Assembly: GCF_020883495.1 (NCBI RefSeq)
Contig: NZ_CP086610.1
Coordinates: 1,531,501-1,595,500, forward strand
Direction of reading: 5' to 3'
DNA from: Shinella zoogloeoides
Lineage (GTDB): Bacteria > Pseudomonadota > Alphaproteobacteria > Rhizobiales > Rhizobiaceae
Length of the DNA: 64,000 nt
In this document: in pieces, positions 2,910 through 18,437 of the stretch
How positions within the stretch are numbered: position 1 is the stretch's first letter
Layout of the letters: each line of letters opens with the position of its first letter
Translations under genes and position numbers: made by a program
Notes under the pieces: generated by a model
Database searches by the model: none
What the model saw: the letters and a program-made list of their open reading frames with translations, nothing else
What the model was told of the DNA's origin: nothing

Positions 2910-3530
2910 TCAGTCGGACAGGTGGTCCAGCAGATCCGTCATCGCGGATGCGGCGGCGGGGCCGTCGCCGTTGCCGATGGCGCGGATGACCTTCACGTGC
3001 AGGTCCACCGAGCGATCCATGTGCCGGTGATCGGCGCGTGCGAACCAGAGACGGCGCGAATGCGTCTGGAGCGGCGCGAGGGCCGCCGTCAGGAAACGGT
3101 TGGGGCAGGCCTCTTCCATGATCTCGTCGAAGGTCTTGTCGGCCGCAAGAAACCCTTCCATGTCGGACTGGATCGAGCAGGCGGTCATGGTCTGTGCGCA
3201 GGCGATGAGGCGGTCGCGGTGATCGTTGGCGGCATGGCGGGCGACGAGGTCGGCCGCAAGCGGCTCGAGTTGCCGGCGCGTTGCCATGACCTCGGCGTGA
3301 TCGTCGGGGCGGATCGCGGCGATCTGCAATCCGGCGCGCGGGCGCACGGCGATCAATCCCTGCCATTCCAGCTTCTGGATCGCCTCGCGCACCGGCGTCC
3401 GGCCATGGCTGGCAAGCTCGATGAGCTGCTTTTCCGTGACCAGTGAGCCGGGCTTCAGCTTGAGCGTGACGATGAGGCCTTCGAGGGCGAGATAGGCGAG
3501 GTGAGCTTGCGACGCCGCGGTTTCCGTCAT
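2910..3530 (-). CDS. GntR family regulator, FCD (FadR) subfamily
   Basis: A 206-residue transcription factor. The N-terminal winged helix-turn-helix holds the family signature GRTPVREAIQKLEWQG (residues about 44-59), followed by an all-helical FCD ligand domain with metal-type histidines (HAEV, LHVKVIRAI). FCD regulators usually sense small organic acids or sugars and repress adjacent catabolic genes; the ligand here is unknown. Two identical palindromes just upstream (3545 and 3591) suggest autoregulation and possibly control of the ferric-reductase-like gene facing the other way. It ends at a shared terminator with fpr. Confidence 0.88.
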   Translation of the reverse strand: MTETAASQAHLAYLALEGLIVTLKLKPGSLVTEKQLIELASHGRTPVREAIQKLEWQGLIAVRPRAGLQIAAIRPDDHAEVMATRRQLEPLAADLVARHAANDHRDRLIACAQTMTACSIQSDMEGFLAADKTFDEIMEEACPNRFLTAALAPLQTHSRRLWFARADHRHMDRSVDLHVKVIRAIGNGDGPAAASAMTDLLDHLSD

Positions 3531-3544
3531 TCCGGTATCCTGAT

Positions 3545-3554
3545 TGATATATCA
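3545..3554. promoter_or_regulatory. Palindrome TGATATATCA, putative GntR operator 1
   Basis: A perfect 10-bp palindrome 15 bases upstream of the GntR start. An identical copy lies 46 bases further on. Short AT-centred palindromes of this kind are typical FCD-type GntR operators; the assignment is inference. Confidence 0.55.
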
Positions 3555-3590
3555 CATGGTTGCATGTCGCAAAACGGATGGCAAGTCATC

Positions 3591-3600
3591 TGATATATCA
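3591..3600. promoter_or_regulatory. Palindrome TGATATATCA, putative GntR operator 2
   Basis: Second identical copy of the palindrome in the 3531-3860 gap between the divergent GntR and ferric-reductase-like genes. The rest of this gap (3601-3860) holds no convincing gene, only a ribosome-site-like AGGAGG at 3775-3780. Confidence 0.55.
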
Positions 3601-3794
3601 GTGATGGAGTGCGTGTGCTGCGCTGAGATTGACAGGGGCGCAGCGCATGCCCCGGGCGAGGTGCGATGCCGGTGCATTTCCGTGTCCATCGTTTCCTTGC
3701 CGCGCAGCGCCTTCCGGGCGTTTTCCCCACCCCTCGGGAAAGACCCGAATAAAGCCGAGGGCCGGTCCGTCGATAGGAGGATTGCGGTTGACGA

Positions 3795-5120
3795 ATGTCA
3801 TGGGCCTTGCCAGCATGCCCGCCACGTCGAACCGTTCAGTTGCATTTGTGGGGGCATGGATTGACTGCGGGTTCAATCATCGCGACGCTTCTGATCGTCT
3901 TCGCCGGCCTGCTGGCCGTGCCGGCCGTCAGCCACACCAATGCCGGCACCACTTTCTCGCTGATGGCCTCCTCCATGGCCTTCGTCGCCATGGGAATCGC
4001 GCAGTTCATGGCGACGCGCCCGCCCTTCATCGAACGGCTCTTCGGCGGGCTGGACCGTATCTACCAGTTCCACCGCAAGATCGGCATCGCGGTGCTCTGT
4101 CTTATCCTCGCGCATTATTTCGTCACGCCGGACTTCCAGGGACTGTCGCTGACGGGCGATCTCAACAGGCTTGCCAAGACGGCGGGCGAATGGGCCTTCT
4201 ACGGCTTCGTCTTCCTGCTCGTCCTCAGCCTCCTGAAGGGCATCCCGAGGACGCGCTTCCAGATTCCCTACCAATACTGGCGCTTCACGCACCGCTTCAT
4301 CGGCCTGCTGTTCGTCATGGTCGCCTTCCACCAGATGTTCATCAAGCGTCCCTATGACGGCACCGCGCTGCTCGCCACCTATCTCAACATCTTCGCCCTC
4401 ATCGGCACCGTCAGCTATGCCTATACGCAGCTCTTGCCATGGCTGCGCACGCGAAAATACGAGGTGGTGCATGTCGAGCGTCATGACGGCGCGACGATCA
4501 TCACGGCGCGGCCGACGGGCCGCAAGCTGCGGGCATTGCCCGGCCAGTTCGGCTTCTTCCGGGTGAACAAGTCCGGCCTTCGCGAGCCGCATCCCTTCAC
4601 CATCGCCGGCATCGAGGATGACGGCACCGTCCGTTTCGCCATCAAGCCGCTCGGCGATTATACGAAGGCCCTGCGCGAAACGGTAGCTGTCGGGGACGGG
4701 CTGACGCTGGAGGGCGGCTACGGCCACTTTAACCACAGGCGCGGCGGCAAGAAGCAGATATGGCTTGCCGGCGGCATCGGCGTCACGCCGTTCCTCGCCA
4801 TGGCGGGCCGTCTCAAGGGCGACGAGGGGCAGGATATCCACATGGTCTATTGCGTGCGCGACGGGGCCGAGGCCATCGGTCTGGATACGTTCAGGGCGCA
4901 GGCCGAAAAGCTCGGCAATTTCAGCTTCGTCCTGCACAATTCGGCGACGGACGGCCGTCTCGACGCCGCCCGTCTGGTCGCCGGCACCAGCATGAATCCC
5001 GCCGAGGCCGACCTCTGGTTCTGCGGCCCGCCGCCGTTGCGGATGGCCATCGAAAAGGGGTTGAGGGATTTGGGCAAGACGCCCCGGCGCGTCGAGTTCG
5101 AGCGTTTCGAATTTCGGTAG
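3795..5120 (+). CDS. Ferric-reductase-like transmembrane flavoprotein (FRD plus FNR-type domains)
   Basis: A membrane electron-transfer protein of 441 residues as drawn. Several N-terminal membrane segments carry paired histidines at 93/107 and 166/179, the spacing of two stacked b hemes in ferric reductase/NOX domains. A cytoplasmic FAD domain (EPHPFTIAG) and an NAD(P)H domain (GGIGVTPFLAMA, WFCGPPPLRMAI) follow. It would take electrons from NAD(P)H across the membrane. The start is uncertain: ATG 3795 has its AGGAGG 14 bases away and the first 22 codons look non-coding, so TTG 3861 after GGGGG is a good alternative; a frame change near the start cannot be excluded. The tetraheme cytochrome gene follows after 47 bases without an obvious terminator. 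Confidence 0.83.
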   Translation: MSWALPACPPRRTVQLHLWGHGLTAGSIIATLLIVFAGLLAVPAVSHTNAGTTFSLMASSMAFVAMGIAQFMATRPPFIERLFGGLDRIYQFHRKIGIAVLCLILAHYFVTPDFQGLSLTGDLNRLAKTAGEWAFYGFVFLLVLSLLKGIPRTRFQIPYQYWRFTHRFIGLLFVMVAFHQMFIKRPYDGTALLATYLNIFALIGTVSYAYTQLLPWLRTRKYEVVHVERHDGATIITARPTGRKLRALPGQFGFFRVNKSGLREPHPFTIAGIEDDGTVRFAIKPLGDYTKALRETVAVGDGLTLEGGYGHFNHRRGGKKQIWLAGGIGVTPFLAMAGRLKGDEGQDIHMVYCVRDGAEAIGLDTFRAQAEKLGNFSFVLHNSATDGRLDAARLVAGTSMNPAEADLWFCGPPPLRMAIEKGLRDLGKTPRRVEFERFEFR

Positions 5121-5167
5121 GATAATTTCGGCCGGTCCGTCGGCCTCATGAAGCGAGGGAACACGCC

Positions 5168-8100
5168 ATGCGCCTGTTCAGCACATCAATCGTCCGGCTT
5201 GGCGCTGCGCTCGGCCTTGCTGCCGCGATCTTCTGTCCGGCGGGAGCCTCCGCCGTCGACCAGTTCGCGCCGGATGCCTATGGCGCGTATCAGGCGAATG
5301 CCGAGAACGGCAAGATCCTGTTCGGTGCGGCCGGCTGCGGCGCGTGCCACGGTTCGGGCGACAATACCGAGCTTCTTTCCGGCGGCATGGAGATGCAGAC
5401 GGCGATCGGCAAGTTCTTCGCGCCGAACATCTCCGCCCATCCGAACGGCATCGGCGGCTGGTCGAATGCGGATTTCCTGAACGCCGTGATGGTGGGGCTG
5501 AAGAAGGACGGGGACAACCTCTATCCGGTCATGCCCTACACTTCCTACGGCGGCATGAAGCCGGAGGACGTGCTGGACATCAAGGCCTATATCGAGACGC
5601 TGCCGCAATCCGACGCCGCCTCGAAGGAACACGAGATCGCCTTCCCCTTCAGCCGCCAGACGACGATCACGCTCTGGAAGCGCAGCCACTTCACCGTGCC
5701 GGCCTACCAGCCACGCGAAGCGACGCAGATGGAGCGCGGCCGCTATCTGGTGGAGAATGTCGGCGGCTGCGGCGATTGCCACACGCCGCGCACCACGACC
5801 TACGGTCTCGACCTTGCCCGCGCCTATGAGGGCGAGAAGGGCCTGACCGGCGCCGTCGCGCCCGATATCACCAAGGCGCGCATGAGCGGCCTTGCCTCGC
5901 ACGAGGTCTTCACAAAGGGCCTCATCGCGGAGGGCAACAAGCTGTCCGGGTCGCCGCTGTCCGATCCGGTCATGCGCCGCATCGCGCATGGCCTGTCCAC
6001 GTTGTCCGATGAGGACAAGCAGGCCATGTACGCCTTCCTTGCCGACCGCGAGGTGAAGGTGACCCCCGTCGAGACCAGCGCCACGCCGGTCTGCAGCGAG
6101 GCGACCTCCGAAACGGCGCTCGGCGCGGGTGGGGCAAGCACGGAATTCGCCTCGGCGGCCGATGCCTTCATCGGCAAATACTGCCGCAACTGCCACGGTC
6201 CGGGCGAAAGCTCGCAAGGGTCCTTCCCCTCGGGCGACCTTGCCTCGATTGCCGCCAATCCGGCTTTCGTGACGCCGGGCGACGCTTCCAAGTCGCTGCT
6301 CTATACCAGCGTCACCAGCGGCCGCATGCCGCTCGGCAAGCGCCCGGACGATGCCGAGGTGCAGAGCCTCGCCAACTGGATCAATTCGCTGAACCAGTCC
6401 GCCATCCCGACCGCCGTGTCGGCGACGCAGGTCAAGCGCGCGCGCCCGATGCTGAAATATCTCGACTTCGTCGAGCTGGCGCTGCGCGATATCTCAAAGG
6501 TCAGCGCGCACGACCAGCCCTTCATGCGCTATTTCAGCTATCGCGACCAGTATAACGGCATGATGAGCTGCGAAACGCACGAGACCTTCCTGAAGCGCAT
6601 GAAGGTTCTGGCGGGCGGCTTCAAGAAGCTGCTGAATTCCCTGTCCTACGGCCCGGAACTGGTGTTTCCCGAGGAGGTCGAAGGCTCGGACGGCCTGCTC
6701 GTGCGCATCGATATGCGCGACCTCGAATGGAGCCAGGACGACTACGATTTCCTGATCAACGAATATGTCTATGGCGTCGATCCGGAAAGCGATGCGCAGC
6801 TCCATGCGCTGGCAAAGGCGACGCAGACGCAGCTTCCGATCATGCGTGTCGACTGGTTCATGAGCAATGGCGCGCGGCCCAAGGTCTACAACCGCCTGAT
6901 GAAGCTGCCGACCAATATCATCGAGCTGGAACAGCGCTTCGGGGTGAATGTCGAGGACAACATCGTGCGTCGCCGCATCGTGCGCGCCGGCTTCGCCGAC
7001 GGCTCGTCCGGTGTGTCCGACCACAATCGCATGCTGGAGCGCCACGACATGCCCTTCGGCGGCTATTACTGGAAGTCCTACGACTTTGCCGGCGATGTCG
7101 GCCGCCAGGTGTTGAAGCGCTTCCCGGCGGGGCCGCACGGCGTTCCGCTGCCGGCGGGCCTCGAACCCTTCGAGCATGACGGCGGCGAAATGATCTTCTC
7201 GCTGCCGAACGGCCTGCAGGGCTATTACCTGTCGACCAACAAGGGCGACCAGCTCGACGTCGGCCCGACCTCGATCGTGTCCTTCCGCAAGCGGCCGATC
7301 GGCAAGGGCGTGGAGATCGTCAACGCGCGGTCCTGCTTCGACTGCCATTTCGACGGCATCCTGTCGAAGCGCGACCAGCTCCGCGAACATATCGAGACCT
7401 CGACGCTGTTCTCCAAGGACCAGCAGGACGAGCTGCTCGCCGTCTATGTGCCGCAGGAAAAGCTGAACGAGGTCTACAAGCGCGATACCGACCGCTTCGT
7501 CGCCGCGCTCGACCGCCTCGGCATCACGGAAACCACGGCCGGCGGCGGCAAGACCGGCCTGAAGGCGCCGGGCGGCGCGGAGATATTCACCTACTTCGCC
7601 GACAAGTACGAAGACCAGTTGGACTTCGAGCAGCTTGCCTCCGAGTTCGACATGACGCCGGAGGAATTCACCTCGGATATCCGCCGCATCGCCGACGTTA
7701 ATGCCCTGCGCATCGGTCTCGACTGGGTGGCGACGCTCGAAGCCGGCGCAACGATCCCGCGCGTGGAACTGGAAGAGCAATACGCTTTCATGCTGGAGCC
7801 GCTTCGCCAGCTCAGGCCGCTGAAGCACGGCGTCAATCCGGACATGCCGGCCGAGACCGGGCAGCAGGTGGCGGGTGGCGATCAGGCGAGCGCGGCCTAT
7901 GTCGTGCCGGCCTACAAGCAGGACGACAAGGCGCAGGCCGAGAAGGTGAAGCTCGCCCTGCATGTCTCCTCGACCCGCGCGAAGGTCGGGGACCGCCTGA
8001 GCTTCGAGCTGAGCACGAACCATGCCTGCGAACTCCAGGTCGTCTATGTGGAGGATACCGGCAATGTCGAGATCATCCCGGATGTGATGATCGGCAGCAC

Positions 8101-8368
8101 CACGCTGGAGCCGGGCGAGCGCCGCATGATCCCGCAGCCCGGAACCGGCAACCTGACCTTCGATTCGCCGTCGCCCGGCGAAACCATGATCGCCGTCTGC
8201 AAGGCCGGCGGCCTCGGTGACCGCAAGCTGACCGTGGACAGGGCGAGACAGCTCGTCGCCGGCTCGAAGCAGCCGACGACACGTGGGCTTGCCATCAATC
8301 TCGCCAAGCAGGCGGAGGAAGATCACGGGGCGAGCGGCCTGCAGATGGTGACGTTCGAAATCCGGTGA
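5168..8368 (+). CDS. Secreted tetraheme cytochrome c with C-terminal DUF4384-like domain
   Basis: A 1066-residue exported protein with a signal peptide ending near ASA (residues 27-29). Four covalent heme motifs are visible: CGACH (57-61), CGDCH (201-205), CRNCH (339-343) and CFDCH (723-727). The first two sit in domains resembling dehydrogenase-associated diheme cytochromes, the third in a planctomycete-type cytochrome domain. Residues about 400-720 match nothing I recognise. The last 130 residues (GDRLSFELSTNHACELQVVYVEDTG onward in part) resemble DUF4384, the module found in secreted bacterial caspase-like proteins such as the two encoded downstream. A ribosome site (GAGGGA) precedes the ATG. 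Likely periplasmic electron carrier or sensor; function unknown. Confidence 0.85.
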   Translation: MRLFSTSIVRLGAALGLAAAIFCPAGASAVDQFAPDAYGAYQANAENGKILFGAAGCGACHGSGDNTELLSGGMEMQTAIGKFFAPNISAHPNGIGGWSNADFLNAVMVGLKKDGDNLYPVMPYTSYGGMKPEDVLDIKAYIETLPQSDAASKEHEIAFPFSRQTTITLWKRSHFTVPAYQPREATQMERGRYLVENVGGCGDCHTPRTTTYGLDLARAYEGEKGLTGAVAPDITKARMSGLASHEVFTKGLIAEGNKLSGSPLSDPVMRRIAHGLSTLSDEDKQAMYAFLADREVKVTPVETSATPVCSEATSETALGAGGASTEFASAADAFIGKYCRNCHGPGESSQGSFPSGDLASIAANPAFVTPGDASKSLLYTSVTSGRMPLGKRPDDAEVQSLANWINSLNQSAIPTAVSATQVKRARPMLKYLDFVELALRDISKVSAHDQPFMRYFSYRDQYNGMMSCETHETFLKRMKVLAGGFKKLLNSLSYGPELVFPEEVEGSDGLLVRIDMRDLEWSQDDYDFLINEYVYGVDPESDAQLHALAKATQTQLPIMRVDWFMSNGARPKVYNRLMKLPTNIIELEQRFGVNVEDNIVRRRIVRAGFADGSSGVSDHNRMLERHDMPFGGYYWKSYDFAGDVGRQVLKRFPAGPHGVPLPAGLEPFEHDGGEMIFSLPNGLQGYYLSTNKGDQLDVGPTSIVSFRKRPIGKGVEIVNARSCFDCHFDGILSKRDQLREHIETSTLFSKDQQDELLAVYVPQEKLNEVYKRDTDRFVAALDRLGITETTAGGGKTGLKAPGGAEIFTYFADKYEDQLDFEQLASEFDMTPEEFTSDIRRIADVNALRIGLDWVATLEAGATIPRVELEEQYAFMLEPLRQLRPLKHGVNPDMPAETGQQVAGGDQASAAYVVPAYKQDDKAQAEKVKLALHVSSTRAKVGDRLSFELSTNHACELQVVYVEDTGNVEIIPDVMIGSTTLEPGERRMIPQPGTGNLTFDSPSPGETMIAVCKAGGLGDRKLTVDRARQLVAGSKQPTTRGLAINLAKQAEEDHGASGLQMVTFEIR

Positions 8369-8375
8369 TAAGAAC

Positions 8376-8405
8376 GGCAGGGGCCTTGCGGCCCCTGCCA
8401 TTTTT
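8376..8405 (+). terminator. Intrinsic terminator or attenuator after the cytochrome gene
   Basis: A perfect 10-bp stem (GGCAGGGGCC) with a TTGC loop is followed by ATTTTT. It lies 8 bases after the cytochrome stop and just before the OmpA-like gene, so it may lower or separate expression of the downstream caspase genes. Confidence 0.75.
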
Positions 8406-8413
8406 CGAGGGCT

Positions 8414-9382
8414 ATGAGGGCAGGGCCGACAATGCTGATGCGATCCCTTCGTCGTGAGGCAGTTCCAGATGCAAGGCCGCGCGGCGCCTTTGCCGGAATG
8501 GCCGTCGCCGCGACACTCTTTCTTCTGGCTGGCGCTGCGCCGGCAACCGCCGCCTGCGAGGCCTTCACCGGCGTCGTCGAGGCGTTCAATGCGGGCGACG
8601 AGGCGAAGGCTCGCGCCTTTGCCGCGGCGGCGGGCACCGCCAATTGCCGCGCCGGCGAGCGCACGCTGATCGGCCGCATCGCATCGCTGACGGTCTTCAA
8701 CCGCATCACCACGGCTGTCGGAAACGGGGAGAAGCTCTCCGACCATCAGGCGCTGCTGGAGGAGCTTCAGACGCAATATGGCGGCCCGTGGCAGGTCCTC
8801 GACGCGCTCGGCGACCTCGCACGCGACCGCAAGGACTACGAACAGGCCGCGCGCCTCTACCAGCTCGCGCTGGAAGACAGCGCGAACGAGACGCTGACGC
8901 CGGACTGGATGGCGCCCGATGCGCAATACATCCTGCGTCTCGACAGGCTGGCGAGCGAGATGCGTCTTGCCGCGCCGCGCCCCGTGCAGCTCGCCATGCG
9001 CGGCGGCTGCAAGATTTCCTTCCGCGGCGTGAAGATAAAGAAGAAATCGACGCCGGTGCGCTATGTCTTCGGAACTGCGGATTTCACGCCGGAGGGCGAG
9101 GAGGCCGCAAAAGACCTTGCCGAATGCCTTAAGGCCGTCAAGCCCGCCTCGATCCGGCTCATCGGCCACACCGATTCCATCGGTTCGACCGAGGCGAACT
9201 ACACGCTTTCGCTGGCGCGTGCCGAAACGCTGAAGGCCTATCTTTCCAGCGTCGGCTACGCGGGCGCAATCGCGACCGAGGGCAGGGGCGAGGACCAGCC
9301 CTTCAAGCCGGACGACGCCAGCGCCTACGACACGGAGATGCTGAACCAGCTCAACCGCCGGGTGGAGGTGGATGTGGAATGA
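8414..9382 (+). CDS. Periplasmic protein with TPR and OmpA-like peptidoglycan-binding domain
   Basis: A 322-residue exported protein. A hydrophobic signal segment (AVAATLFLLAGAAPATA) sits near residues 30-47. Around residues 125-155 there is a single TPR-like repeat (ARDRKDYEQAARLYQLAL). The C-terminal third is an OmpA/MotB domain with IGHTDSIGS and a final LNRRVEV, the diaminopimelate-binding fold, so it should anchor to peptidoglycan. No lipobox is seen. ATG codons at 8432 and 8438 are equally plausible starts and have an AGGGC ribosome site. The stop overlaps the next start (ATGA at 9379), so it is translationally coupled to the caspase-like genes. Confidence 0.83.
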   Translation: MRAGPTMLMRSLRREAVPDARPRGAFAGMAVAATLFLLAGAAPATAACEAFTGVVEAFNAGDEAKARAFAAAAGTANCRAGERTLIGRIASLTVFNRITTAVGNGEKLSDHQALLEELQTQYGGPWQVLDALGDLARDRKDYEQAARLYQLALEDSANETLTPDWMAPDAQYILRLDRLASEMRLAAPRPVQLAMRGGCKISFRGVKIKKKSTPVRYVFGTADFTPEGEEAAKDLAECLKAVKPASIRLIGHTDSIGSTEANYTLSLARAETLKAYLSSVGYAGAIATEGRGEDQPFKPDDASAYDTEMLNQLNRRVEVDVE

Positions 9383-10929
9383 TACGGACGCTGCCCCGCC
9401 TCCTGGCGCTTTCCCTCGCCATCGCTCTTCCCGGGCCGGCTCTTGCGGCGCAGACCTATGCGCTGGTGGTGGGCGCAGACAAGTATCCCAACGATGTGAG
9501 CCTCGACGGCGCCGTGCGCGATGCCGAGGACGTCTACAGGGCGATGAGCGCCGCGGGGTTCACGGTCGTCAAGTTCACCGATGCCGAGGCGCGCAAGGAC
9601 GTTATCCGCAAGGCCTGGACCGACATGGTTGCGACGGCGGCGGCGGGCGATACGATCATCTTTACCTATGCCGGCCATGGCGCGCAGATGCCCGAGCTTG
9701 TCGCCGGCGACGAGGCGGATGGGTTGGACGAATTCCTCCAGCTTCCGGGCTTCGACCGCAATCGTTATGAGGAAACGTCGAACGAGATCATCGTCGACAA
9801 CGAGATGAATGCCTGGTTCGCCGAGGCGGAAGGCAAGGGTGTGCATGTGCTCTTCGTCTCCGATAGCTGCTTTTCCGGCGGCATGAGCCGATCCGTGACG
9901 GGCAAGAGCCGTCTTGCGCCCGCCGTGAAGGTCAAGCTCGCGCCGCCCTCGCAGGAGGCGATCGACGGGGCGAGCTTCAAGGAGATCGATTTCAAGCAGG
10001 TGACCGTGCTCGCCGCCTCGCTGGAAAGCCAACCGACCCCGGAGGTCATCATCGACGGCGAGCCGCGCGGCGCGCTGAGCTGGAGCTTCGCCCGCGCCGT
10101 GGAGGGCAGCGCCGACCGCGACGGTAACGGCCTCATCACGCGCATCGAGCTTGAGGACTACATCTTCTCGAACGTGAAGAACCGTTCGGAGGCCCTGCAG
10201 GTGCCGAACTTCATGCCGCAGGTGGCGCGTTCGGAAAGCGAGGTCGTGGTGACACTGACCCGCGGCCTGCCGGCCGGAACCGCAAGCGACACGGCCGCAG
10301 CCGACCGGATCGTGAAGCCGGCCGGCGAACTCGGCTGGACCGGCAAGATCGCCCTGCGGATCGATGGCGACGCGGCAAGGCCGGACAGGGCCGATGGCGC
10401 CGGCACGCCCTTCCGCTGGGATGTGGCAAGCGGCGTCTTCTACACGCCCAACGGCGATGTCGCGGCGGAAAATGTCGGGCCGGACCGTATCCAGGCGGTG
10501 GTGGACAAGTTCGTCCTGCTCGATTTCCTCAAGGCCGTGGCGAGCCAGAATCCCGGCTCCGTCTCCCTGACGCCGGTAAAGGATATCTATGCCGCCGGCA
10601 CGCGCCTGCGCTTCGATGCGCCGCCCGGCCGCTATCCGAACATGCTGGTCTTCAACCTCGCCAATACCGGCGAGGTGCAGTTCCTCGACATGCAGGCAGC
10701 CGGCAGCGGCGCGTCGCAGTTCAAGCTGACGGATGTCGAGGTCGTCAAACCTTTCGGCGCCGACCATCTCGTCACCATCTGGACCGCCGAGCCGGTCGAT
10801 GCCATCGGCGCGGTTCTCGCCGACCCCAACGTGACCGCCGCCGCCCTGCTGCAGGCGCTGACGACGCGCCTCGACGGCAAGGCGGCGAGTGTCGCCATCC
10901 AGCCTCTCTACACGCGGGAGACGCTCTGA
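9379..10929 (+). CDS. Secreted caspase-like (C14) protein 1 with EF-hand-like loop and DUF4384-like tail
   Basis: A 516-residue exported protein; signal peptide ends near ALAA (residues 20-24). The caspase fold is clear: ALVVGADKYP, then catalytic His100 in TYAGHGAQ and Cys164 in VSDSCFSGG, both intact. Residues 246-257 (DRDGNGLITRIE) match a 12-residue EF-hand calcium loop, inside the protease region. Residues about 395-480 resemble DUF4384. Bacterial caspase-fold enzymes of this type (metacaspases, orthocaspases) often cleave after Arg or Lys and need calcium, but specificity is not predictable here. It overlaps the upstream gene by four bases and the downstream gene by one (TGATG), indicating a coupled trio. 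Confidence 0.88.
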   Translation: MIRTLPRLLALSLAIALPGPALAAQTYALVVGADKYPNDVSLDGAVRDAEDVYRAMSAAGFTVVKFTDAEARKDVIRKAWTDMVATAAAGDTIIFTYAGHGAQMPELVAGDEADGLDEFLQLPGFDRNRYEETSNEIIVDNEMNAWFAEAEGKGVHVLFVSDSCFSGGMSRSVTGKSRLAPAVKVKLAPPSQEAIDGASFKEIDFKQVTVLAASLESQPTPEVIIDGEPRGALSWSFARAVEGSADRDGNGLITRIELEDYIFSNVKNRSEALQVPNFMPQVARSESEVVVTLTRGLPAGTASDTAAADRIVKPAGELGWTGKIALRIDGDAARPDRADGAGTPFRWDVASGVFYTPNGDVAAENVGPDRIQAVVDKFVLLDFLKAVASQNPGSVSLTPVKDIYAAGTRLRFDAPPGRYPNMLVFNLANTGEVQFLDMQAAGSGASQFKLTDVEVVKPFGADHLVTIWTAEPVDAIGAVLADPNVTAAALLQALTTRLDGKAASVAIQPLYTRETL

Positions 10930-12437
10930 TGATCCGCTGCGCCGCCGTCCTGCTTTCGCTTCTGCTGTTTTCCGGCGCGAATGCGGCCGACCGCGCGCTG
11001 CTGATCGGTATCGGCACCTATGCCACCCTGCCGGAGAAGCTGTTCCTCGAAGGCCCGAAGAACGACGTGCCGCTGATCGAGAAGCTGCTCAGGGAAAAGC
11101 AGGGCTATGCGGCCGATTCGATCCGCATCCTGCGCGACAAGGATGCGAGCCGCGCCGCGATCCTTGCCAGCATCGACGAATGGCTGGTGGCCGGCACGCA
11201 GCCGGGCGACCGTGTCTATCTCTACTTTTCCGGCCACGGCCTCCAGGTTAAGGATCAGGACGGCGACGAGGAGGACGGGCTGGACGAGGCGCTGTCGACC
11301 TATGATATCGAAGCCGGCGACGGTGACTGGACGAATGTGATCCTCGACGACGAGATCGACGCGATGCTCGCGAAGCTCAAGGATCGCGCCGTGTCCATCG
11401 TCATCGATGCCTGCCATTCCGGCACGATCTCGCGGTCCCTTTCCGCACAGGTGGGGGACGTGATGGAAAGCGCGCGTTTCCTGCCGCGCCCCCGCGCAAA
11501 GCCGGTGGACGAGTTGAAGACGCGCGGCCTGCGCATCGATCAGGCCATCGTCGATAAACCCGCTGTCGTAAAGCAGGGCGGTGTCGAGGCGTGGAGCGCG
11601 GCGTCCTCCTATCAGGTCGCCTGGGACGATACGCGCCTGCCGCCGGAGGAACGCCACGGCGTCTTCACGCTCTCCTATGTCGACGGCCACGAGACCGCCG
11701 CATCCGACAGCAACGGCAACGGCATCGTTTCGAATGCCGAACTGCTCGACTATGTGATGAAGCAGTCGCAAGCCTATTGCGCCGCGCAGGACCAGTGCCA
11801 GGGCCTCGATCCACAACTCGAGGTCAACCATGCGCTGCTCGGCGCCAGCGCCGTGATCCCGGCCACCGAGACCGGCCAGCAGACGCCGGACTACGGCAAG
11901 GTCGAGCAGGTGAAGGTCGAGAATACCACGCAGACCGCCTATGTCGCGGCCGATCCGGTCGATGCCGTCGGTGATATCCTCGGCAAGGCGCAGACCGGCG
12001 ACGTCACGGTTGCGCTTTCCTCCGACCGCCTGAAGAACGGCGATACATTCCGCATCACGGTGACGAGCGCCACCGGCGGAAATCTCGTCCTCTACGACGT
12101 GGACAGGAACGGCAAGGCGACGCAGATATTCCCCAACGAAACGGCGCAGAAGATCACCCGCCTTGCCGCAAACACCCCGATCACCATCCCCGACGACTAT
12201 TACGGTTTCGATTTCGAGGCGGAAGGCCCGAGTGAGAACGTCCTGGTAGCCATCGTCGTCGCCGACGATGTGGACCTCACCAAAATCGCTCCGAGCGACT
12301 ACGGCCTCACCAAGGAACTCGACGCCCGCACCACCATTGCCGAGATTGCCGGCGCCCTGAACGGGACCTGGACGCGCGACACCGAGAACCGCAGCGTGAA
12401 CTGGTCGCTCGGCCTCCTGAAATACACGGTCTATTGA
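10929..12437 (+). CDS. Secreted caspase-like (C14) protein 2 with EF-hand-like loop and DUF4384-like tail
   Basis: A 502-residue paralogue of the preceding protein. Signal peptide ends near ANA (residues 17-19). Catalytic His103 lies in YFSGHGLQ and Cys162 in IDACHSGT. The acidic run DQDGDEEDGLDEA follows the histidine, and DSNGNGIVSNAE (260-271) again fits an EF-hand loop at the equivalent place. Residues about 365-445 (NGDTFRITVTSATGG onward) resemble DUF4384. The two copies differ widely between motifs, so the duplication is old and both dyads have been kept. It is the last gene of the cluster and converges on the MepB gene 20 bases away; no strong terminator is seen. Confidence 0.88.
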   Translation: MIRCAAVLLSLLLFSGANAADRALLIGIGTYATLPEKLFLEGPKNDVPLIEKLLREKQGYAADSIRILRDKDASRAAILASIDEWLVAGTQPGDRVYLYFSGHGLQVKDQDGDEEDGLDEALSTYDIEAGDGDWTNVILDDEIDAMLAKLKDRAVSIVIDACHSGTISRSLSAQVGDVMESARFLPRPRAKPVDELKTRGLRIDQAIVDKPAVVKQGGVEAWSAASSYQVAWDDTRLPPEERHGVFTLSYVDGHETAASDSNGNGIVSNAELLDYVMKQSQAYCAAQDQCQGLDPQLEVNHALLGASAVIPATETGQQTPDYGKVEQVKVENTTQTAYVAADPVDAVGDILGKAQTGDVTVALSSDRLKNGDTFRITVTSATGGNLVLYDVDRNGKATQIFPNETAQKITRLAANTPITIPDDYYGFDFEAEGPSENVLVAIVVADDVDLTKIAPSDYGLTKELDARTTIAEIAGALNGTWTRDTENRSVNWSLGLLKYTVY

Positions 12438-12457
12438 GAGCCTGAATCGGGCGTGCC

Positions 12458-12976
12458 TCAGGCCTGAAAGAGCATCCTTACCTGCTCGGGGGATTCGGCC
12501 GTCCCGTCCGCCGCAAGGGGAAGAAAGCATCGAACCTGCCATTGCTGCGTTCGTATCGCGTCCTTCGCCGTCGGCTTGCACCAGGGCGGATAGACGCGAA
12601 TGGCCCGCTTCCCGCCCTTGCCGCCGCGCGACATGACACCCTTTTCAAGCAGAACCTTCCGATTGAAGATAAACTGTCCACAATGTTCGGCATCCGAGAC
12701 GCTGACCACGACGAATGCCACATCGTCCGCGCTATCCAGCGGTGTAATCTCGCTCTGCGGCGTCGACCGCTTCCAGATCGTCACGAACTGCCCGACCTTG
12801 GTCGGCGTCGTCCTTGCGATACGGAAGACGACGGCATGACCGTCGAGACCGAAGCGGCAGGCCCCGTATTCCGCACTCTCGGCCTCGCGCTGGGCCGGGT
12901 GGGTCAGGTTCATTCCTGCGCATTCATAGACATTCCGGATAATGTCGTTCAGCAGGTCGAGGGTGGAATCTGGCAT
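12458..12976 (-). CDS. MepB family protein
   Basis: A 172-residue cytoplasmic protein of the MepB family, named after a gene next to the MepRA multidrug pump of Staphylococcus aureus; its molecular role is unknown. Visible signatures are KVGQFVTIWKRS, DDVAFVVVSV, CGQFIFNRKVLLEKGV and GGKGGKRAIRVYPPWCKP. The start MPDSTLDLLND at 12976 gives the family length; the frame is open further upstream (to 13135) but that sequence has no conserved look and no ribosome site is strong. No pump gene is near. It converges on the second caspase-like gene. Codon composition is less GC-biased than that of its neighbours, which could mean later acquisition. Confidence 0.78.
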   Translation of the reverse strand: MPDSTLDLLNDIIRNVYECAGMNLTHPAQREAESAEYGACRFGLDGHAVVFRIARTTPTKVGQFVTIWKRSTPQSEITPLDSADDVAFVVVSVSDAEHCGQFIFNRKVLLEKGVMSRGGKGGKRAIRVYPPWCKPTAKDAIRTQQWQVRCFLPLAADGTAESPEQVRMLFQA

Positions 12977-13182
12977 GTGCTTGCTTGGGTTATGGGGCCT
13001 GTGGGATGCATCTGCGCGCGGCCATACCTGCCAGTGAATCGGCCCCTCGTAAATTGAGATCGCCCATTCAATCAGGCGGGAAGAGAGCCGCGCGTGGAAC
13101 TTCTTGGAACTCTTTGGAACTAAAATCAGTTCCATCTAAAGAGCGCCGCAGCCCGGAAACATCTGAAAAATATGGGGGTCGG

Positions 13183-13258
13183 TGGTGAGCGCGCAGGGAT
13201 TCGAACCCTGGACCTACTGATTAAAAGTCAGTTGCTCTACCGGCTGAGCTACGCGCTC
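13183..13258 (-). tRNA. tRNA-Lys (anticodon TTT)
   Basis: The minus strand folds as a complete tRNA: acceptor GAGCGCG/CGCGCTC, D arm TAGCTCAGCCGGTAGAGCA, anticodon loop CTTTTAA with TTT, T arm GGTTCGAATCC, discriminator A and an encoded CCA (13183-13185). No integrase or repeated tRNA 3' fragment was seen nearby, so there is no sign of an integrated island. Confidence 0.96.
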
Positions 13259-13489
13259 CCAGGCGGTGCGAAGGACGCCCCGCGGAAGTGCGCGGAACAT
13301 AGGCAGGAGGGTTTGCCGGGTCAACCCAGAAAATGGGGCGAAAAACAGCTTTTGCTGCATTTCGCCGCGTTCTCCAAAAGGTGATTGGCAGGAGCGGTCC
13401 GCGGCGGCTATCTGAGAGCGCAAACGGAGGCGCGGGCGGGTTGTCGAACAGCCGCAACTGCGTTCCTCCGGCCCTTTCGGAGTGGTCCC

Positions 13490-14239
13490 TTGTCGATTGC
13501 CGATATTTCCCTTTTGAGCGCGCTTCTTGCCGGGGCGCTGTCGTTCCTTTCGCCCTGCGTGCTGCCGCTCGTGCCGCCCTATCTGTGTTATATGGCGGGC
13601 ATTTCGGTGGATCAGTTCCGTGGGAACGAGGCGGTGGCGGTGCGGCGCGATACGCGCGGCGCGGTGCTTCTGGCGGCGTTCTTCTTCACGCTCGGCTTCG
13701 CCACGGTCTTCATTGCGCTCGGTGCGGGCGCCTCGACGATCGGCATGGTGCTGCGCCGGCATCTCGATATCCTCGCGCAGATCGGCGGCGTCATCATCAT
13801 CCTGATGGGCCTGCATTTCCTCGGCGTGCTGCGTATCGGCCTCTTTGCCCGCGAGGCGCGTTTCCAGGGCGGCGGCAAGCCGGCGACGGCCTCGGGCGCC
13901 TATCTGATGGGCCTCGCCTTCGCCTTCGGCTGGACGCCGTGCATCGGGCCGGTGCTCGGCGCGATTCTCGGCGTGGCGGCGGCACGCGAGACCGTGGGCG
14001 ACGGGGCGATCCTGCTTGCCGTCTACTCGCTGGGTCTGGCCGTTCCGTTCTGGATCGCGGCGGGCTTTTCGGGGGCCTTCATGCGCTTCCTCGTGCGCTT
14101 CCGCCGCCATCTCGGCACGGTGGAGAAGGTGATGGGCGTGCTCCTGATCCTCACCGGCCTTGCCTTCATCTTCGGATATATCAGCGCTGTCGCCATCTGG
14201 TTCCAGCAAACGTTTCCCATCCTCTCGCAAATCGGCTAG
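13490..14239 (+). CDS. ccdA: CcdA-type cytochrome c biogenesis/thiol-disulfide transporter
   Basis: A 249-residue, six-segment inner membrane protein that moves reducing equivalents from cytoplasmic thioredoxin to the periplasm for cytochrome c maturation or thiol repair. The redox cysteines are Cys23 in LSPCVLPLVPPY and Cys151 in GWTPCIGPVLG. The start is a TTG at 13490, seven bases after GGAG; the longer open frame has no suitable start and low membrane character. It stands alone between the tRNA and an AEC transporter. It may supply reductant for the c-type cytochrome encoded 5 kb away, but that link is only suggestive. Confidence 0.88.
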   Translation: MSIADISLLSALLAGALSFLSPCVLPLVPPYLCYMAGISVDQFRGNEAVAVRRDTRGAVLLAAFFFTLGFATVFIALGAGASTIGMVLRRHLDILAQIGGVIIILMGLHFLGVLRIGLFAREARFQGGGKPATASGAYLMGLAFAFGWTPCIGPVLGAILGVAAARETVGDGAILLAVYSLGLAVPFWIAAGFSGAFMRFLVRFRRHLGTVEKVMGVLLILTGLAFIFGYISAVAIWFQQTFPILSQIG

Positions 14240-14281
14240 TCGGAAGTATCAGCCTCAGCGAGCGGGAGCAGGCCTCGGCCC

Positions 14282-15244
14282 ATGGCGGACATTATCGGAC
14301 TCGTGCTGCCGTTCTTCGGCATGATCCTGCTCGGTTACGTGGTCGCGCGGATCACGAAGCAGCCGGTGGAAGCGCTCGGCTGGCTCAACACCTTCATCAT
14401 CTACATCGCGCTGCCGGCGCTCTTCTTCAAGCTGGTGGCCAAGACGCCGGTCGAGCAACTGACGCGCGTCGATTTCATCCTCGCCAATATCAGCGCCACC
14501 TACCTGATCTTCGGGCTGATCTTCGCCACCGGCCTCTGGCTGCGCCGCGCCACGGTCGGCGAGGCGACGATCCAAGGTCTGGCGGCCGCCTATGGCAATA
14601 TCGGCTATATGGGGCCGGGGCTGGCGCTGCTGGCCTTCGGCGAGCCGGCGGCGGTGCCGGTCGCGCTCGTCTTCTGCTTCGAGAACATGCTGCATTTCAC
14701 GGTCGCTCCGGCCCTGATGGCGCTTGCGGGCGGCGAAAAGCAGCCGCCGCTCAGGATTGCCGGCGGCGTGCTGCACAAGATCGTCACGCATCCCTTCATC
14801 ATCGCGACGGCGGCGGGTTTCGCCGCGGCTTTTGCCGGCTTCGAGCCGCCGGCGCCGCTGCAACGGCTGATCGACTATCTCGCGCAGGCCGCCGCGCCCT
14901 GCGCGCTCTTCGCCATGGGCGTGACGCTTGCGCTGCGGCCGCTGAAGCGGGTGCCGGTGGAGATCGGCTATATCGTTCCGGCGAAGCTGCTGCTGCTGCC
15001 GGTCACCATGTATCTCGTGCTGGGATTGGCCGGTAATTTCGATCCGGTCTGGGTGTTCACGGCCGTGCTGCTCGCCGCCCTGCCGACGGCGACGAACGTT
15101 TTCGTCATCGGCCAGCAATATGGCGTGTGGCAGGAGCGCGCGTCGGCGACCATCCTCATCACGACGGTGCTGTCCGTCGCGACGGTGACGATCCTGCTCT
15201 ATCTCATCAAGTCAGGCCTGCTTCCGGGCGATCCGTTCCCGTAG
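14282..15244 (+). CDS. AEC (auxin efflux carrier) family transporter
   Basis: A 320-residue inner membrane protein with about ten hydrophobic segments in two repeats, typical of the AEC family (MdcF/YfdV-like). Members move organic acids or amino acid derivatives; substrate unknown here. Conserved features include LPFFGMILLGY at the N-terminus, NTFIIYIALPALFFK, the AAYGNIGYMGPGL segment with glycine-rich helix break, and the C-terminal ALPTATNVFVIGQQY. It begins 42 bases after the ccdA-like gene and its 3' end overlaps the converging UbiH-type gene by 33 bases. Confidence 0.87.
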   Translation: MADIIGLVLPFFGMILLGYVVARITKQPVEALGWLNTFIIYIALPALFFKLVAKTPVEQLTRVDFILANISATYLIFGLIFATGLWLRRATVGEATIQGLAAAYGNIGYMGPGLALLAFGEPAAVPVALVFCFENMLHFTVAPALMALAGGEKQPPLRIAGGVLHKIVTHPFIIATAAGFAAAFAGFEPPAPLQRLIDYLAQAAAPCALFAMGVTLALRPLKRVPVEIGYIVPAKLLLLPVTMYLVLGLAGNFDPVWVFTAVLLAALPTATNVFVIGQQYGVWQERASATILITTVLSVATVTILLYLIKSGLLPGDPFP

Positions 15245-16420
15245 GCCGTTGCGAAAAGCCTTCAGCGAGCCGAGCGGCTCGATGCCCTCGCGCATGACGA
15301 TGCTACGCAGCGGCCCGAGGGCTGAGAGGAGGTGCAGGCCGGCGGACCGCAGGAACTGCACGGGCAGGAAATCCGACAGTAGCGAGCGGTTCAGGAGATC
15401 GACGCTGAGGGTGCGCGAGCGGATATCGGCCTGGCGCTTGCGGTCGAAGCGTTCGCCGATATCGGCAAAGTCTGCCGGCGCGCGATCCGCCACAAGCTCC
15501 CGCAGCGCCATGATATCGCGCAGGCTCAGGTTGAGGCCCTGCGCCCCGATCGGCGGAAAGGCATGCGCGGCCTCGCCAACGAGCGCGATGCGCCCCTTGC
15601 CGAATCGCTCCGCCGTCATGCCGGAAAGCGGGAAGCTCTGCACGCCGCCCTCGACGGAAACCGAGCCGAGCATCGATTGCATGCGCTCCTCCACGGCCCG
15701 GCTGATCTCCGCCAGCGGCAGCATGCGCAGCCGCGCCGCTTCCTGCGGCGGCAGCACCCAGACGAGGCTGGAGCGGCGGCCGGGCAGGGGAACCTGCGTG
15801 AAGGGGCCGCTTTCCGTGTGGAATTCCGTGGACACATTGCCGTGCGGCCGTTCGTGCGAGAAGTTGAGCACCAGCGCGGCCTGCGGATAGGACCATGCCT
15901 TGATGCCGATGGCGGCGCTCTCGCGGATCTTCGACTTGCGGCCATCGGCCCCGATCACAAGGCTGGCCATGACGCGCTCGCCATTGTCGAGCACCAGTTC
16001 CACGCCGGTCTCGAAGGCATTGGCGGTCGTCACGCCGCTCTCCACGCGAATAATGGCGCCGGTCGCGGCGATGCGCGCATCCAGAACATCAAGGAACGGC
16101 GCGTTCGGGATGTTGTAGCCGAAGGCGGCAAGGCCGACTTCGCTGGAGCGGAAGGCAACCGGCGGGGCGCGCAGGAGCCGCGCCGTGCCGTCAAGGATCT
16201 GCATGGTCTCGAGTGCGGCGGCGTGGCGGGCGATCTCGCCCCACAGGCCGAGCGTGCCGAGGAAGGCGATGGACTGGTCCATGAGCGCCGTCGTGCGCCC
16301 GTCCGCGGCGCGGGCGGGCGGGGCGATGAGCGCGACGCTGCGCCCCGAATCGGCAAGCGCAAGCGCGGCGAGATTGCCGGCAAGGCCGGCGCCGACGACG
16401 GCGATATCGAATTGTCTCAT
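15212..16420 (-). CDS. UbiH/UbiF family FAD-dependent hydroxylase
   Basis: A 402-residue flavoprotein monooxygenase, probably adding a hydroxyl to the ubiquinone ring. The dinucleotide motif GAGLAGN is at residues 11-17, the DG motif VIGADGRKSKIRE near 160, and the second FAD motif GRIALVGEAAHAFPPIGAQGLNL in parts near 290, all as in the ubiquinone hydroxylase family. Alphaproteobacteria carry UbiH, UbiF, UbiL or UbiM paralogues, so the ring position cannot be assigned. It has its own upstream region (16421-16668, divergent from pcs) that holds no other gene. Confidence 0.86.
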   Translation of the reverse strand: MRQFDIAVVGAGLAGNLAALALADSGRSVALIAPPARAADGRTTALMDQSIAFLGTLGLWGEIARHAAALETMQILDGTARLLRAPPVAFRSSEVGLAAFGYNIPNAPFLDVLDARIAATGAIIRVESGVTTANAFETGVELVLDNGERVMASLVIGADGRKSKIRESAAIGIKAWSYPQAALVLNFSHERPHGNVSTEFHTESGPFTQVPLPGRRSSLVWVLPPQEAARLRMLPLAEISRAVEERMQSMLGSVSVEGGVQSFPLSGMTAERFGKGRIALVGEAAHAFPPIGAQGLNLSLRDIMALRELVADRAPADFADIGERFDRKRQADIRSRTLSVDLLNRSLLSDFLPVQFLRSAGLHLLSALGPLRSIVMREGIEPLGSLKAFRNGLRERIARKQA

Positions 16421-16668
16421 GACCGGCCTCCGAGGCGGAAAGCGTTACCCACAGATTTGCGGTGCTTGTACTGCGCCAAGACTAGGCCCGCAAAGGGGCA
16501 ATTTCCATGGGATGAATCCGCGCAGGCCGAAGAACCGGCCGGCGGACGGGCGATTTTCTCTGGCGGCGTCGGACAATCAATGCATATTACCGGCAGTAAC
16601 CGCACAAGAGGACAGGTTCGGCGGCGCGCGGCCGGGCAAAAGCCCCAAGGGATGGACAGCGAACGGCA

Positions 16669-17394
16669 ATGAAGTTTTTCCATTACAAGCGCGTGCCTTA
16701 CGCGGAAATACGCGCCTTTTCCGTTCATATCCTGACGGCGTCCGGCTCGTTCCTCGCCTTTCTCGGCGTCGTGGCCGCGGCCGAGCACCGTTTCGTGGAC
16801 ATGTTCTGGTGGCTTGGCCTTGCGCTGCTCGTCGATGGCATCGACGGACCGATCGCCCGCAAGGTGCGTGTGAAGGAAGTGCTGCCCAACTGGTCCGGCG
16901 ACACGCTGGACAATGTCATCGACTACGTGACCTACGTGCTCCTGCCGGCCTTCGCGCTCTACCAGAGCGGCATGATCGGCGAGCCGTGGTCCTTCGTGGC
17001 TGCCGGCGCCATCGTGGTGTCCAGCGCCATCTACTATGCCGACATGGGCATGAAGACGGACGAGTATTTCTTCTCCGGCTTCCCGGTCGTCTGGAACATG
17101 GTGGTGTTCACGCTCTTCATCATCAAGGCGAGCGAATTGACGGCGTCGATCATCGTCTTCGTCTCCGTCTTCCTCACCTTCATGCCGATCAACTTCCTGC
17201 ATCCGGTACGCGTCGAGCGCCTGCGGTCGGTGAACCTTGCCATCTTCTTCCTCTGGGCCGGCCTCAGCGGCTATGCGCTCCTGCTGCACTTCGATACGCC
17301 GGCCTGGGTCGTCTGGGGCGTCGTGGCGACGGGGGTCTATCTCTATGTCATCGGCGCGGTGCTGCAGGCCTTTCCCGCCCTCGGCCGGCGCTAG
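16669..17394 (+). CDS. pcs: Phosphatidylcholine synthase
   Basis: A 241-residue membrane enzyme that condenses CDP-diacylglycerol with choline to give phosphatidylcholine in one step, a pathway typical of rhizobia, Agrobacterium and Brucella. The CDP-alcohol phosphotransferase motif is intact: D59-G60-x2-A63-R64, then G77-x3-D81-x3-D85, with the longer middle spacing seen in Pcs proteins. Seven or eight membrane segments follow. The N-terminal MKFFHYKRVPYAEIRAFSVH is characteristic. The quinone oxidoreductase gene begins 18 bases downstream and may be co-transcribed. Confidence 0.93.
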   Translation: MKFFHYKRVPYAEIRAFSVHILTASGSFLAFLGVVAAAEHRFVDMFWWLGLALLVDGIDGPIARKVRVKEVLPNWSGDTLDNVIDYVTYVLLPAFALYQSGMIGEPWSFVAAGAIVVSSAIYYADMGMKTDEYFFSGFPVVWNMVVFTLFIIKASELTASIIVFVSVFLTFMPINFLHPVRVERLRSVNLAIFFLWAGLSGYALLLHFDTPAWVVWGVVATGVYLYVIGAVLQAFPALGRR

Positions 17395-17412
17395 AACAAT
17401 CGGGAGCATGAC

Positions 17413-18384
17413 ATGACCAAGGCGATCGTCATCCGCAGTCTCGGCGGGCCGGAGGTGCTGAAGCTCGAGGACGTGCCGCTCGGCGCGCCGGGGCCGGGCG
17501 AAGTGCAGATCAGGCAGGCGGCGGTCGGCCTCAACTTCATCGACGTCTATTTCCGCACGGGCCTCTACAAGACGGATCTGCCCTTCGTTCCGGGCAAGGA
17601 AGGCGCCGGCACGGTCACCGCGCTCGGCGAAGGCGTCACGGATTTCGCGATCGGCGATCGTGTTGCCTATGCCTCGGCGGACGGCGCCTATGCGGCGGAA
17701 CGGAACGTCGCGACGAAACATCTGGTGAAGGTGCCGGACGGCATTTCGCTCGAGACGGCGGCGGCCATGATGCTGAAGGGCATGACGGCGCAATACCTGC
17801 TGCTCCAGACCTACAAGGTAAAGCCGGGCAGCGTGATCCTGTTCCATGCCGCGGCCGGCGGCGTCGGCCTGATCGCCGGCCAATGGGCCAAGGCGCTCGG
17901 CGCGACGGTGATCGGCACGGCCGGCTCGCAGGCGAAGATCGATCTCGCGCTGGCTCATGGCTACGATCACGTCATCGACTACGGCAAGGAAGATTTCGCC
18001 GAACGGGTGCGTGAACTGACGAACGGCGCGGGCGTCGACGTGGTCTACGATTCCGTTGGCAAGGATACGTTTCCCCGGTCGCTGGACTGCCTGAAGCCGC
18101 GTGGCCTCTTCGTCAGCTTCGGCAATTCCTCGGGGCCGGTCGACGCCTTCAACATGGGCCTGCTCGCGCAGAAGGGGTCGCTCTTCGCCACGCGCCCCAC
18201 GCTCTTTGCCTATATCGCGACGCGCGCGGAACTCGATGCATGTGCAAACTCGCTCTTTGATGTTGTGCAAGGCAACAAAGTGCGTATCAATATTAATCAG
18301 ACTTATCCGTTGGCCGAAGCGGGGCGGGCGCACACGGATTTGGAAACAAGAAAAACGAGCGGAACGACATTGCTCATCCCCTGA
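17413..18384 (+). CDS. Zinc-independent NADPH:quinone oxidoreductase (MDR family)
   Basis: A 323-residue cytoplasmic enzyme of the quinone oxidoreductase branch of medium-chain dehydrogenases, reducing quinones or enals with NADPH. Evidence: the N-terminal GroES-like domain (LNFIDVYFRTGLY, VPGKEGAGTVTALG) without zinc-ligand cysteines, and the Rossmann motif AAAGGVGLIAGQWAKALGA near residues 145-163, then VIGTAGS. The closing LETRKTSGTTLLIP is the standard QorA end. GGGAG precedes the ATG. It lies directly after pcs. Confidence 0.9.
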   Translation: MTKAIVIRSLGGPEVLKLEDVPLGAPGPGEVQIRQAAVGLNFIDVYFRTGLYKTDLPFVPGKEGAGTVTALGEGVTDFAIGDRVAYASADGAYAAERNVATKHLVKVPDGISLETAAAMMLKGMTAQYLLLQTYKVKPGSVILFHAAAGGVGLIAGQWAKALGATVIGTAGSQAKIDLALAHGYDHVIDYGKEDFAERVRELTNGAGVDVVYDSVGKDTFPRSLDCLKPRGLFVSFGNSSGPVDAFNMGLLAQKGSLFATRPTLFAYIATRAELDACANSLFDVVQGNKVRININQTYPLAEAGRAHTDLETRKTSGTTLLIP

Positions 18385-18437
18385 CAAGGACCCGAACGGG
18401 CGCTGGGGAATGGGATCGCAGGGGAAGAGGGGGCAGA

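Follow-up and report, generated by a model that had tools for sequence, protein, structure and literature searches.

Caspase homologues are widespread in bacteria, and the partners and triggers of most of them are unknown. Among the described systems that resemble parts of the locus reported here, NOX-type enzymes normally send electrons outward, and the membrane protein MsrQ works with the periplasmic MsrP. One report found that purified SpNOX could still reduce cytochrome c when kept under argon, although less efficiently, and it names MsrQ as a member of the FRD family (PMC5676040). In a 2012 survey of bacterial metacaspases, 14 of the 217 operons recorded include an OmpA domain (PMC3501461). 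Here, we describe five consecutive genes of Shinella zoogloeoides (assembly GCF_020883495.1, contig NZ_CP086610.1, forward-strand positions 1,531,501 to 1,595,500; this whole stretch of 64,000 nucleotides is called the window) that combine a NOX-type enzyme, an exported cytochrome c, an OmpA-domain protein, and two caspase-fold proteins. The sequence-only reading from which this study started had known of no described system of this composition, and none was named among the open-access titles and abstract starts listed (supplements excluded). We judge that the composition differs from every kind found and that the mechanism is unproven.

Composition and conservation of the gene set

An open reading frame (ORF) check of the window located the five genes at 3795-12437, with the following coordinates.

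3795..5120, plus strand: NOX/SpNOX-like transmembrane flavocytochrome (FRD; NOX below), 441 amino acids; identified by Pfam, alignment, solved-structure match, and hydrophobic segments

5168..8368, plus strand: exported tetraheme cytochrome c (CYT), 1066 amino acids; identified by Pfam, CxxCH sites, protein relatives, and alignment

8414..9382, plus strand: exported OmpA-domain protein, 322 amino acids; C-terminal OmpA domain at residues 217-301, signal-peptide-like N-terminus

9379..10929, plus strand: exported caspase-fold protein 1 (C14; caspase 1), 516 amino acids; dyad H100/C164, DUF4384-like C-terminus

10929..12437, plus strand: exported caspase-fold protein 2 (C14 plus DUF4384; caspase 2), 502 amino acids; dyad H103/C162

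The OmpA and caspase 1 genes overlap by 4 nucleotides and the two caspase genes by 1 nucleotide. The composition claimed by the sequence-only reading was borne out by Pfam, the profile search returning matches for C14, DUF4384, cytochrome, OmpA, and ferric reductase, with the DUF4384 match of CYT below threshold. The composition, export, and conserved linkage of the set are supported by the data presented here. Its function is proposed tentatively, at somewhat less than an even chance: the set may be a conserved alphaproteobacterial envelope module in which NOX would pass electrons to the cytochrome, the OmpA-domain protein would provide anchoring, and proteolysis by the caspase-clan enzymes would be set by the state of the cytochrome.

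To examine conservation, named genomes were scanned with the CYT alignment, giving 163 relatives; the best 80 loci were kept, and the sample therefore leans to close kin. Because ORF calling went wrong in loci that differ in base composition, the counts rest on six-frame hits of home-built, uncurated profiles made from the window proteins and their relatives, the CHAT profile being narrow. Among these best 80 loci, NOX was found in 78, OmpA in 79, C14 in 71, and either C14 or CHAT in 74. The tightest pair was NOX and CYT, with NOX directly upstream on the same strand in 78/80 loci, and the gene order of the window was kept in 53/80. The set was thus kept together in most of the loci, well beyond the one strain, which was the point on which the sequence-only reading had staked its claim. 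The two loci in which NOX gave no hit are both contig ends: L065, where tblastn finds a NOX fragment, and L109, which is cut. The six loci lacking a protease comprise three contigs of ∼6 kb (L082, L104, and L112), one of 14.8 kb with less than 3 kb upstream (L080), and two loci with full flanks (L087 and L090). A similar row of caspase, OmpA, ferredoxin reductase, and c-type cytochrome genes is present in the public annotation of a Neorhizobium petrolearium plasmid.

At least one of six flanking genes was shared by 44/80 loci, so that the flanks are partly kept too, and part of the Rhizobiaceae signal could reflect inherited order. The 36 loci sharing none of the six flanks were therefore counted apart, and among them NOX was found in 34, OmpA in 35, and C14 or CHAT in 30. 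The set also survives in rearranged orders such as CYTn-C14-C14-CYTc-OmpA (e.g., L127, L128, and L134), a split form with the diheme part apart and without NOX. Survival in both of these situations argues against the view that the genes are neighbors through inherited order alone, with no joint function, and we consider that view very improbable. In its 4.85 Mb, the genome of the window holds 4 C14 genes, of which two belong to this locus, together with eight OmpA matches and one CHAT match; by simple arithmetic, a C14 gene would fall in a 20-kb stretch by chance about 2% of the time.

CHAT proteins, like C14, are caspase-clan proteases. The loci of Roseibium suaedae, Roseibium aestuarii, and Hoeflea marina contained no C14 and had a CHAT protein instead. 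Each of the two Roseibium genomes had a single CHAT match, which lay at this locus; Hoeflea marina had three, two of them within the locus; the locus of Rhizobium sp. L1K21 held both CHAT and C14. Because CHAT can stand in place of C14, the constant of the locus seems to be a caspase-clan protease rather than a single family.

The NOX-type membrane enzyme

The NOX protein matched Ferric_reduct, FAD_binding_8, and NAD_binding_1, all above the Pfam cut-off, and a simple hydrophobicity rule placed six hydrophobic segments ahead of the flavin domain. The heme His pairs H93/H107 and H166/H179 and the motifs HPFT and CGP were invariant in 65/65 aligned sequences (a length-filtered set in which the copy of the window is counted twice). 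In the window protein, the FAD motif reads HPFTI and the NAD(P) motif GGIGVTP, with CGP also present. The best solved match was 8qt6 (E 4.2e-40, residues 46-440). Entries of this type bear only the label "FAD-binding FR-type domain-containing protein," and we take them to be SpNOX, in keeping with their listed lengths. Two bis-His heme pairs in transmembrane helices (TM) 3 and 5 and about six TM helices, as expected of bacterial NOX, were present, and the protein also passed the sequence filter for bacterial NOX given in a published study (PMC5676040). The earlier designation as a ferric-reductase-like membrane flavoprotein therefore held for the Pfam domains and the bis-heme His residues, and the protein is better called a bacterial NOX-type enzyme than a plain ferric reductase. 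This NOX-type flavocytochrome probably moves electrons outward.

The tetraheme cytochrome and its unnamed heme domain

In CYT, Cytochrom_C and Cytochrome_CBB3 scored above the Pfam cut-off, whereas DUF4384 reached 21.5 of the 27 bits required. Three sets of sequences were used: a 28-sequence alignment consisting of the window protein and 27 of 120 listed proteins; a wider set (n = 95) of proteins longer than 700 amino acids; and two domain alignments of the window with 38 and with 22 of 94 domain slices, L112 being short and left off the domain list. The heme sites and domains were as follows.

5336..5350, plus strand: CxxCH heme site 1, residues 57-61; invariant in 28 sequences

5768..5782, plus strand: CxxCH heme site 2, residues 201-205; invariant in 28 sequences

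6182..6196, plus strand: CxxCH heme site 3, residues 339-343; invariant in 28 sequences and in 95/95 of the wider set

7334..7348, plus strand: CxxCH heme site 4, residues 723-727, within the unnamed domain; invariant in 28 sequences and present in 94/95 of the wider set, the other having a gap

6428..7843, plus strand: unnamed heme domain, residues 421-892; no Pfam match, confident structure model

7925..8368, plus strand: DUF4384-like C-terminal domain, residues 920-1066; sub-threshold Pfam match, profile match to the caspase C-termini

The invariance of all four sites in the 28-sequence alignment agrees with the exported tetraheme cytochrome c of 1066 residues proposed from sequence. Its best named protein relatives were from Shinella. 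CYT is composed of a dehydrogenase-type triheme part, the unnamed heme domain (421-892), and the DUF4384-like domain. In the triheme part, profile positions 19-357 matched dehydrogenase cytochrome subunits in sequence, and the fold matched over ∼250 residues; c-heme domains of the fold that marks alcohol dehydrogenase/fructose dehydrogenase (ADH/FDH)-type cytochrome subunits are therefore present. This resemblance raises the alternative of reverse flow, in which the cytochrome would oxidize a periplasmic substrate as dehydrogenase cytochrome subunits do and deliver electrons to the membrane, the remaining proteins serving as scaffold and in turnover. A scan confined to 12 window genes, which took in neither the other loci nor the remainder of the genome, found no dehydrogenase subunit gene that might act as a partner, and the usual outward direction of NOX-type partners also argues against reverse flow; reverse flow is considered unlikely.

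The structure model of the unnamed domain had a pLDDT of 90.9 and a pTM of 0.89. The window member gave no Pfam match at E up to 10, no Foldseek match to the PDB at E≤0.001, and no sequence match to solved structures up to E 10. CYT exposes an unnamed c-heme domain of ∼470 residues. A resemblance to cytochrome P460 was hinted at by structure only; it was supported neither by Pfam nor by profile comparison, and it remains a lead. P460 (PF16694) was absent from the Pfam matches of 23 unnamed-domain members, and in a comparison with profiles from 27 of 30 P460 loci, just 10 columns around CxxCH aligned, at 19 to 34%. Four other alphaproteobacterial genomes (G597, G830, G1014, and G1022) gave cytochrome P460 matches in open frames that are 1021 to 1072 residues long, the match of G1022 being below cut-off; these frames are far longer than the remaining P460 frames of the same search.

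Caspase-fold proteins, OmpA-domain protein, and export

Pfam assigned Peptidase_C14 to caspase 1, Peptidase_C14 and DUF4384 to caspase 2, and OmpA, above cut-off, to protein 3. The His and Cys of the C14 dyad were each conserved in 100/101 proteins of the CASP1 set, which includes divergent C14 proteins of other loci, and in 48/51 and 49/51, respectively, of the CASP2 set (both sets length-filtered, with the window copy counted). Both proteins thus carry the domain and the His/Cys dyad of the C14 peptidases, and their proteolytic activity is predicted. These results, together with signal-like N-termini, agree with the earlier description of two exported caspase-fold proteins with intact dyads. 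The OmpA domain of protein 3 (residues 217-301) is of the peptidoglycan-binding type, upholding that part of its description as a TPR/OmpA-like wall-binding protein; the TPR signal was weak, its best match scoring 17.9 bits where the cut-off is 27.9.

A DUF4384-like domain was found to be common to CYT and both caspases. In profile comparison, the C-terminus of CYT matched that of caspase 2 at 96.6% and that of caspase 1 at 87.4%; the probabilities of 97, 87, and 71% compare with ≤0.7% for five control pairs. Export was called by a simple hydrophobicity rule, with the window copy counted and with every C14 or OmpA protein encoded in the loci included, also beyond the neighbors of CYT. An N-terminus resembling a signal, and no TM segment after it, was found in 142/154 C14, 80/81 OmpA, 70/78 CYT, and 2/4 CHAT proteins, against a background of 237/901 unlabeled ORFs. 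In other gene orders, the caspases often carried wall-binding domains (SH3_3 in 11/65, PG_binding_1 in 6/65, and LprI in 4/65). Pfam confirmed C14 in 60/65 of these proteins, which had been chosen with the home-built profiles; they are 65 of 71 proteases, the others being two from L122, one each from L117, L135, and L138, and a truncated one from L078.

A PADLOC run covering the five proteins matched its "caspase" model to caspase 2 (E 4.5e-25) and caspase 1 (E 1.1e-13). An anti-phage assignment was rejected, as PADLOC yielded only this generic model and weak ZorB-like OmpA matches. The Bradyrhizobium diazoefficiens gene bll3611 is listed as a caspase family gene among NnrR-controlled genes in one study (PMC6710368); a connection with the nitric oxide regulon of NnrR by way of this gene was set aside and is not used as support.

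Distribution

CYT was found in 28/297 sampled genomes of the family at E 1e-60, counting the genome of the window, and was thus patchy and absent from most. Across the phylum, the unnamed domain was present in 3/398 genomes at E 1e-10, the genome of the window and two others from its class. Spread of the module on plasmids was rejected, just 1 of 72,556 plasmid records matching the unnamed domain. The patchy distribution would fit an accessory trait, and C14 and CHAT proteases have been tied to cell death elsewhere; with the PADLOC matches, these points would suit an alarm, for cell death at the envelope or against predators or phages, in which damage at the cytochrome releases the caspases and the cell is killed. 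Known caspase defense systems act in the cytoplasm, whereas the caspases of the window look exported, and we regard such an alarm as quite improbable.

Transcription and neighboring genes

The short gaps and the overlaps suggest co-expression of the five genes, as judged from the layout. No sigma-70-like promoter was found in 3400-13300. One further feature lies within the set.

8376..8399, plus strand: terminator-like hairpin between CYT and OmpA; 10-bp stem followed by ATTTTT, a possible attenuator

Terminator-like hairpins were found behind the cytochrome in 10/49 other loci tested, seven of which are Shinella loci with a kindred stem, and the two halves of the module may be unequally expressed.

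A divergent GntR/FCD regulator (2910-3530, minus strand) lies just upstream of the NOX gene and could regulate the set; a relative was present in 29/81 loci tested. Directly 3' of caspase 2, on the opposite strand, is a MepB-like protein (PF08877; 12458-13135, minus strand), and a short distance downstream of the set is a CcdA/DsbD-type cytochrome c biogenesis membrane protein (PF02683; 13385-14239, plus strand), with a relative in 9/81 loci tested. Elsewhere, a recurrent run of small genes, among them a ParA-like one ("GADKGGVGKTTT"), was observed downstream of the cytochrome in Salaquimonas and Nitratireductor (L078, L080, and L095), followed in L078 and L095 by apparent cytochrome bd oxidase genes (names read from sequence). 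In Roseibium suaedae (L084), a siderophore-interacting flavoprotein (PF04954 and PF08021; 13222-14334, plus strand) comes right after the cytochrome. In Hoeflea marina (L097), a 2225-amino-acid protein with HYDIN/ASPM-type Ig-like repeats (14069-20746, minus strand) adjoins the module.

Proposed mechanism

From family knowledge and sequence, the NOX-type protein would carry electrons from cytoplasmic NAD(P)H through FAD and two b-hemes across the inner membrane. These would then reach the exported cytochrome, where the three dehydrogenase-type c-hemes might relay them to or from the fourth heme in the unnamed domain. The OmpA-domain protein, as its family suggests, would hold the assembly at the peptidoglycan, and the periplasmic caspase-clan proteases would be joined to the cytochrome via the shared DUF4384-like domain, cutting envelope proteins upon a change in cytochrome state. 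The best-supported part of this chain is that from NAD(P)H through NOX to the cytochrome; the step from cytochrome to caspase is one that we infer. The shared domain, the shared compartment, and the conserved linkage suggest that the proteins form a single wall-bound assembly in which cytochrome state would determine proteolysis, and from them we infer redox control of proteolysis as the leading reading. A more specific form is rather unlikely: an NAD(P)H-driven periplasmic switch in which NOX charges the cytochrome c and the heme state directly activates the caspase-clan proteases bound by their DUF4384 domains.

Several observations weigh against redox-controlled proteolysis. His-119, following the second heme His of TM3, was proposed as a mark of NOX that generate reactive oxygen species, a criterion derived from comparing eukaryotic FRE with NOX (PMC3591440); the corresponding residue here is Thr111, four residues past H107. 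The authors of the SpNOX work allow that electrons may pass from FAD to cytochrome c in detergent (PMC5676040). With the T-run hairpin at 8376-8399 (10-bp stem) separating CYT from OmpA, a single operon is not established. Some genomes have up to 17 C14 genes, so that some of the linkage could be chance, and the Roseibium suaedae, Roseibium aestuarii, and Hoeflea marina genomes hold one or two C14 genes elsewhere. In 27 remoter regions with a CYT relative (excluding L139, which had no hit), NOX was found in only 5, OmpA in 21, and a protease in 17; two of the five NOX-bearing regions repeat named loci (L117 = L092 and L122 = L107). Five of the 27 lacked both OmpA and a protease, one of them being a 3.6-kb contig. 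Finally, the full-length loci L087 and L090 hold OmpA, NOX, and CYT with full flanks and have no C14 or CHAT within 10 kb.

The last observation, the tightness of the NOX-CYT pair, and the exchangeability of C14 and CHAT would each suit a device for electron export or reactive oxygen, in which NOX and the cytochrome would oxidize or reduce periplasmic targets. The caspase-clan proteins would then serve to mature the heme protein or its products or to control their quality, with no triggered output. Since proteases are nearly always present (74/80) and the two of the window share a domain with the cytochrome, we regard such a device as possible but doubtful, and redox control of proteolysis is kept as the leading reading.

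Were redox state to gate proteolysis, this would be a new kind of envelope signaling, and the NOX/cytochrome c/caspase switch, if true, would work like the eukaryotic oxidant-cytochrome c-caspase cell death chain, homology not being implied. The set provides genetically defined, conserved caspase partners (NOX, tetraheme cytochrome, and wall-binding protein), making the question of partners and triggers testable in soil bacteria, and bacterial NOX enzymes gain a candidate electron acceptor.

Comparison with known systems

CRISPR-linked TPR-CHAT protease is cytoplasmic. The present loci resemble such systems in having a CHAT protease instead of C14, and once beside it, and differ in that the two Roseibium CHAT proteins start with a signal-like segment. 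With the surveyed metacaspase operons, the locus shares the linkage of an OmpA domain to a caspase homologue; it differs in its redox components, the words "cytochrome," "ferric reductase," "heme," and "redox" not occurring in the available main text of that survey (PMC3501461). The triheme part of CYT matches the triheme subunits of membrane-bound fructose, alcohol, and aldehyde dehydrogenases in sequence and fold, whereas here it is fused to the unnamed heme domain and the DUF4384-like domain, and the window genes scanned include no partner of the dehydrogenase type. Like MsrPQ, the locus pairs a membrane protein of the ferric reductase superfamily with a periplasmic redox partner; no MsrP-type molybdopterin partner domain was found among the 12 window genes scanned, the partner here being a multiheme cytochrome, the flavin domain being fused, and proteases belonging to the set. 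The NOX protein agrees with SpNOX of Streptococcus pneumoniae in its six hydrophobic segments, its two bis-His pairs at NOX spacing, its FAD and NAD(P) motifs, and the match over residues 46-440, and differs from it in its genetic linkage with caspases, an OmpA-domain protein, and a cytochrome that is exported.

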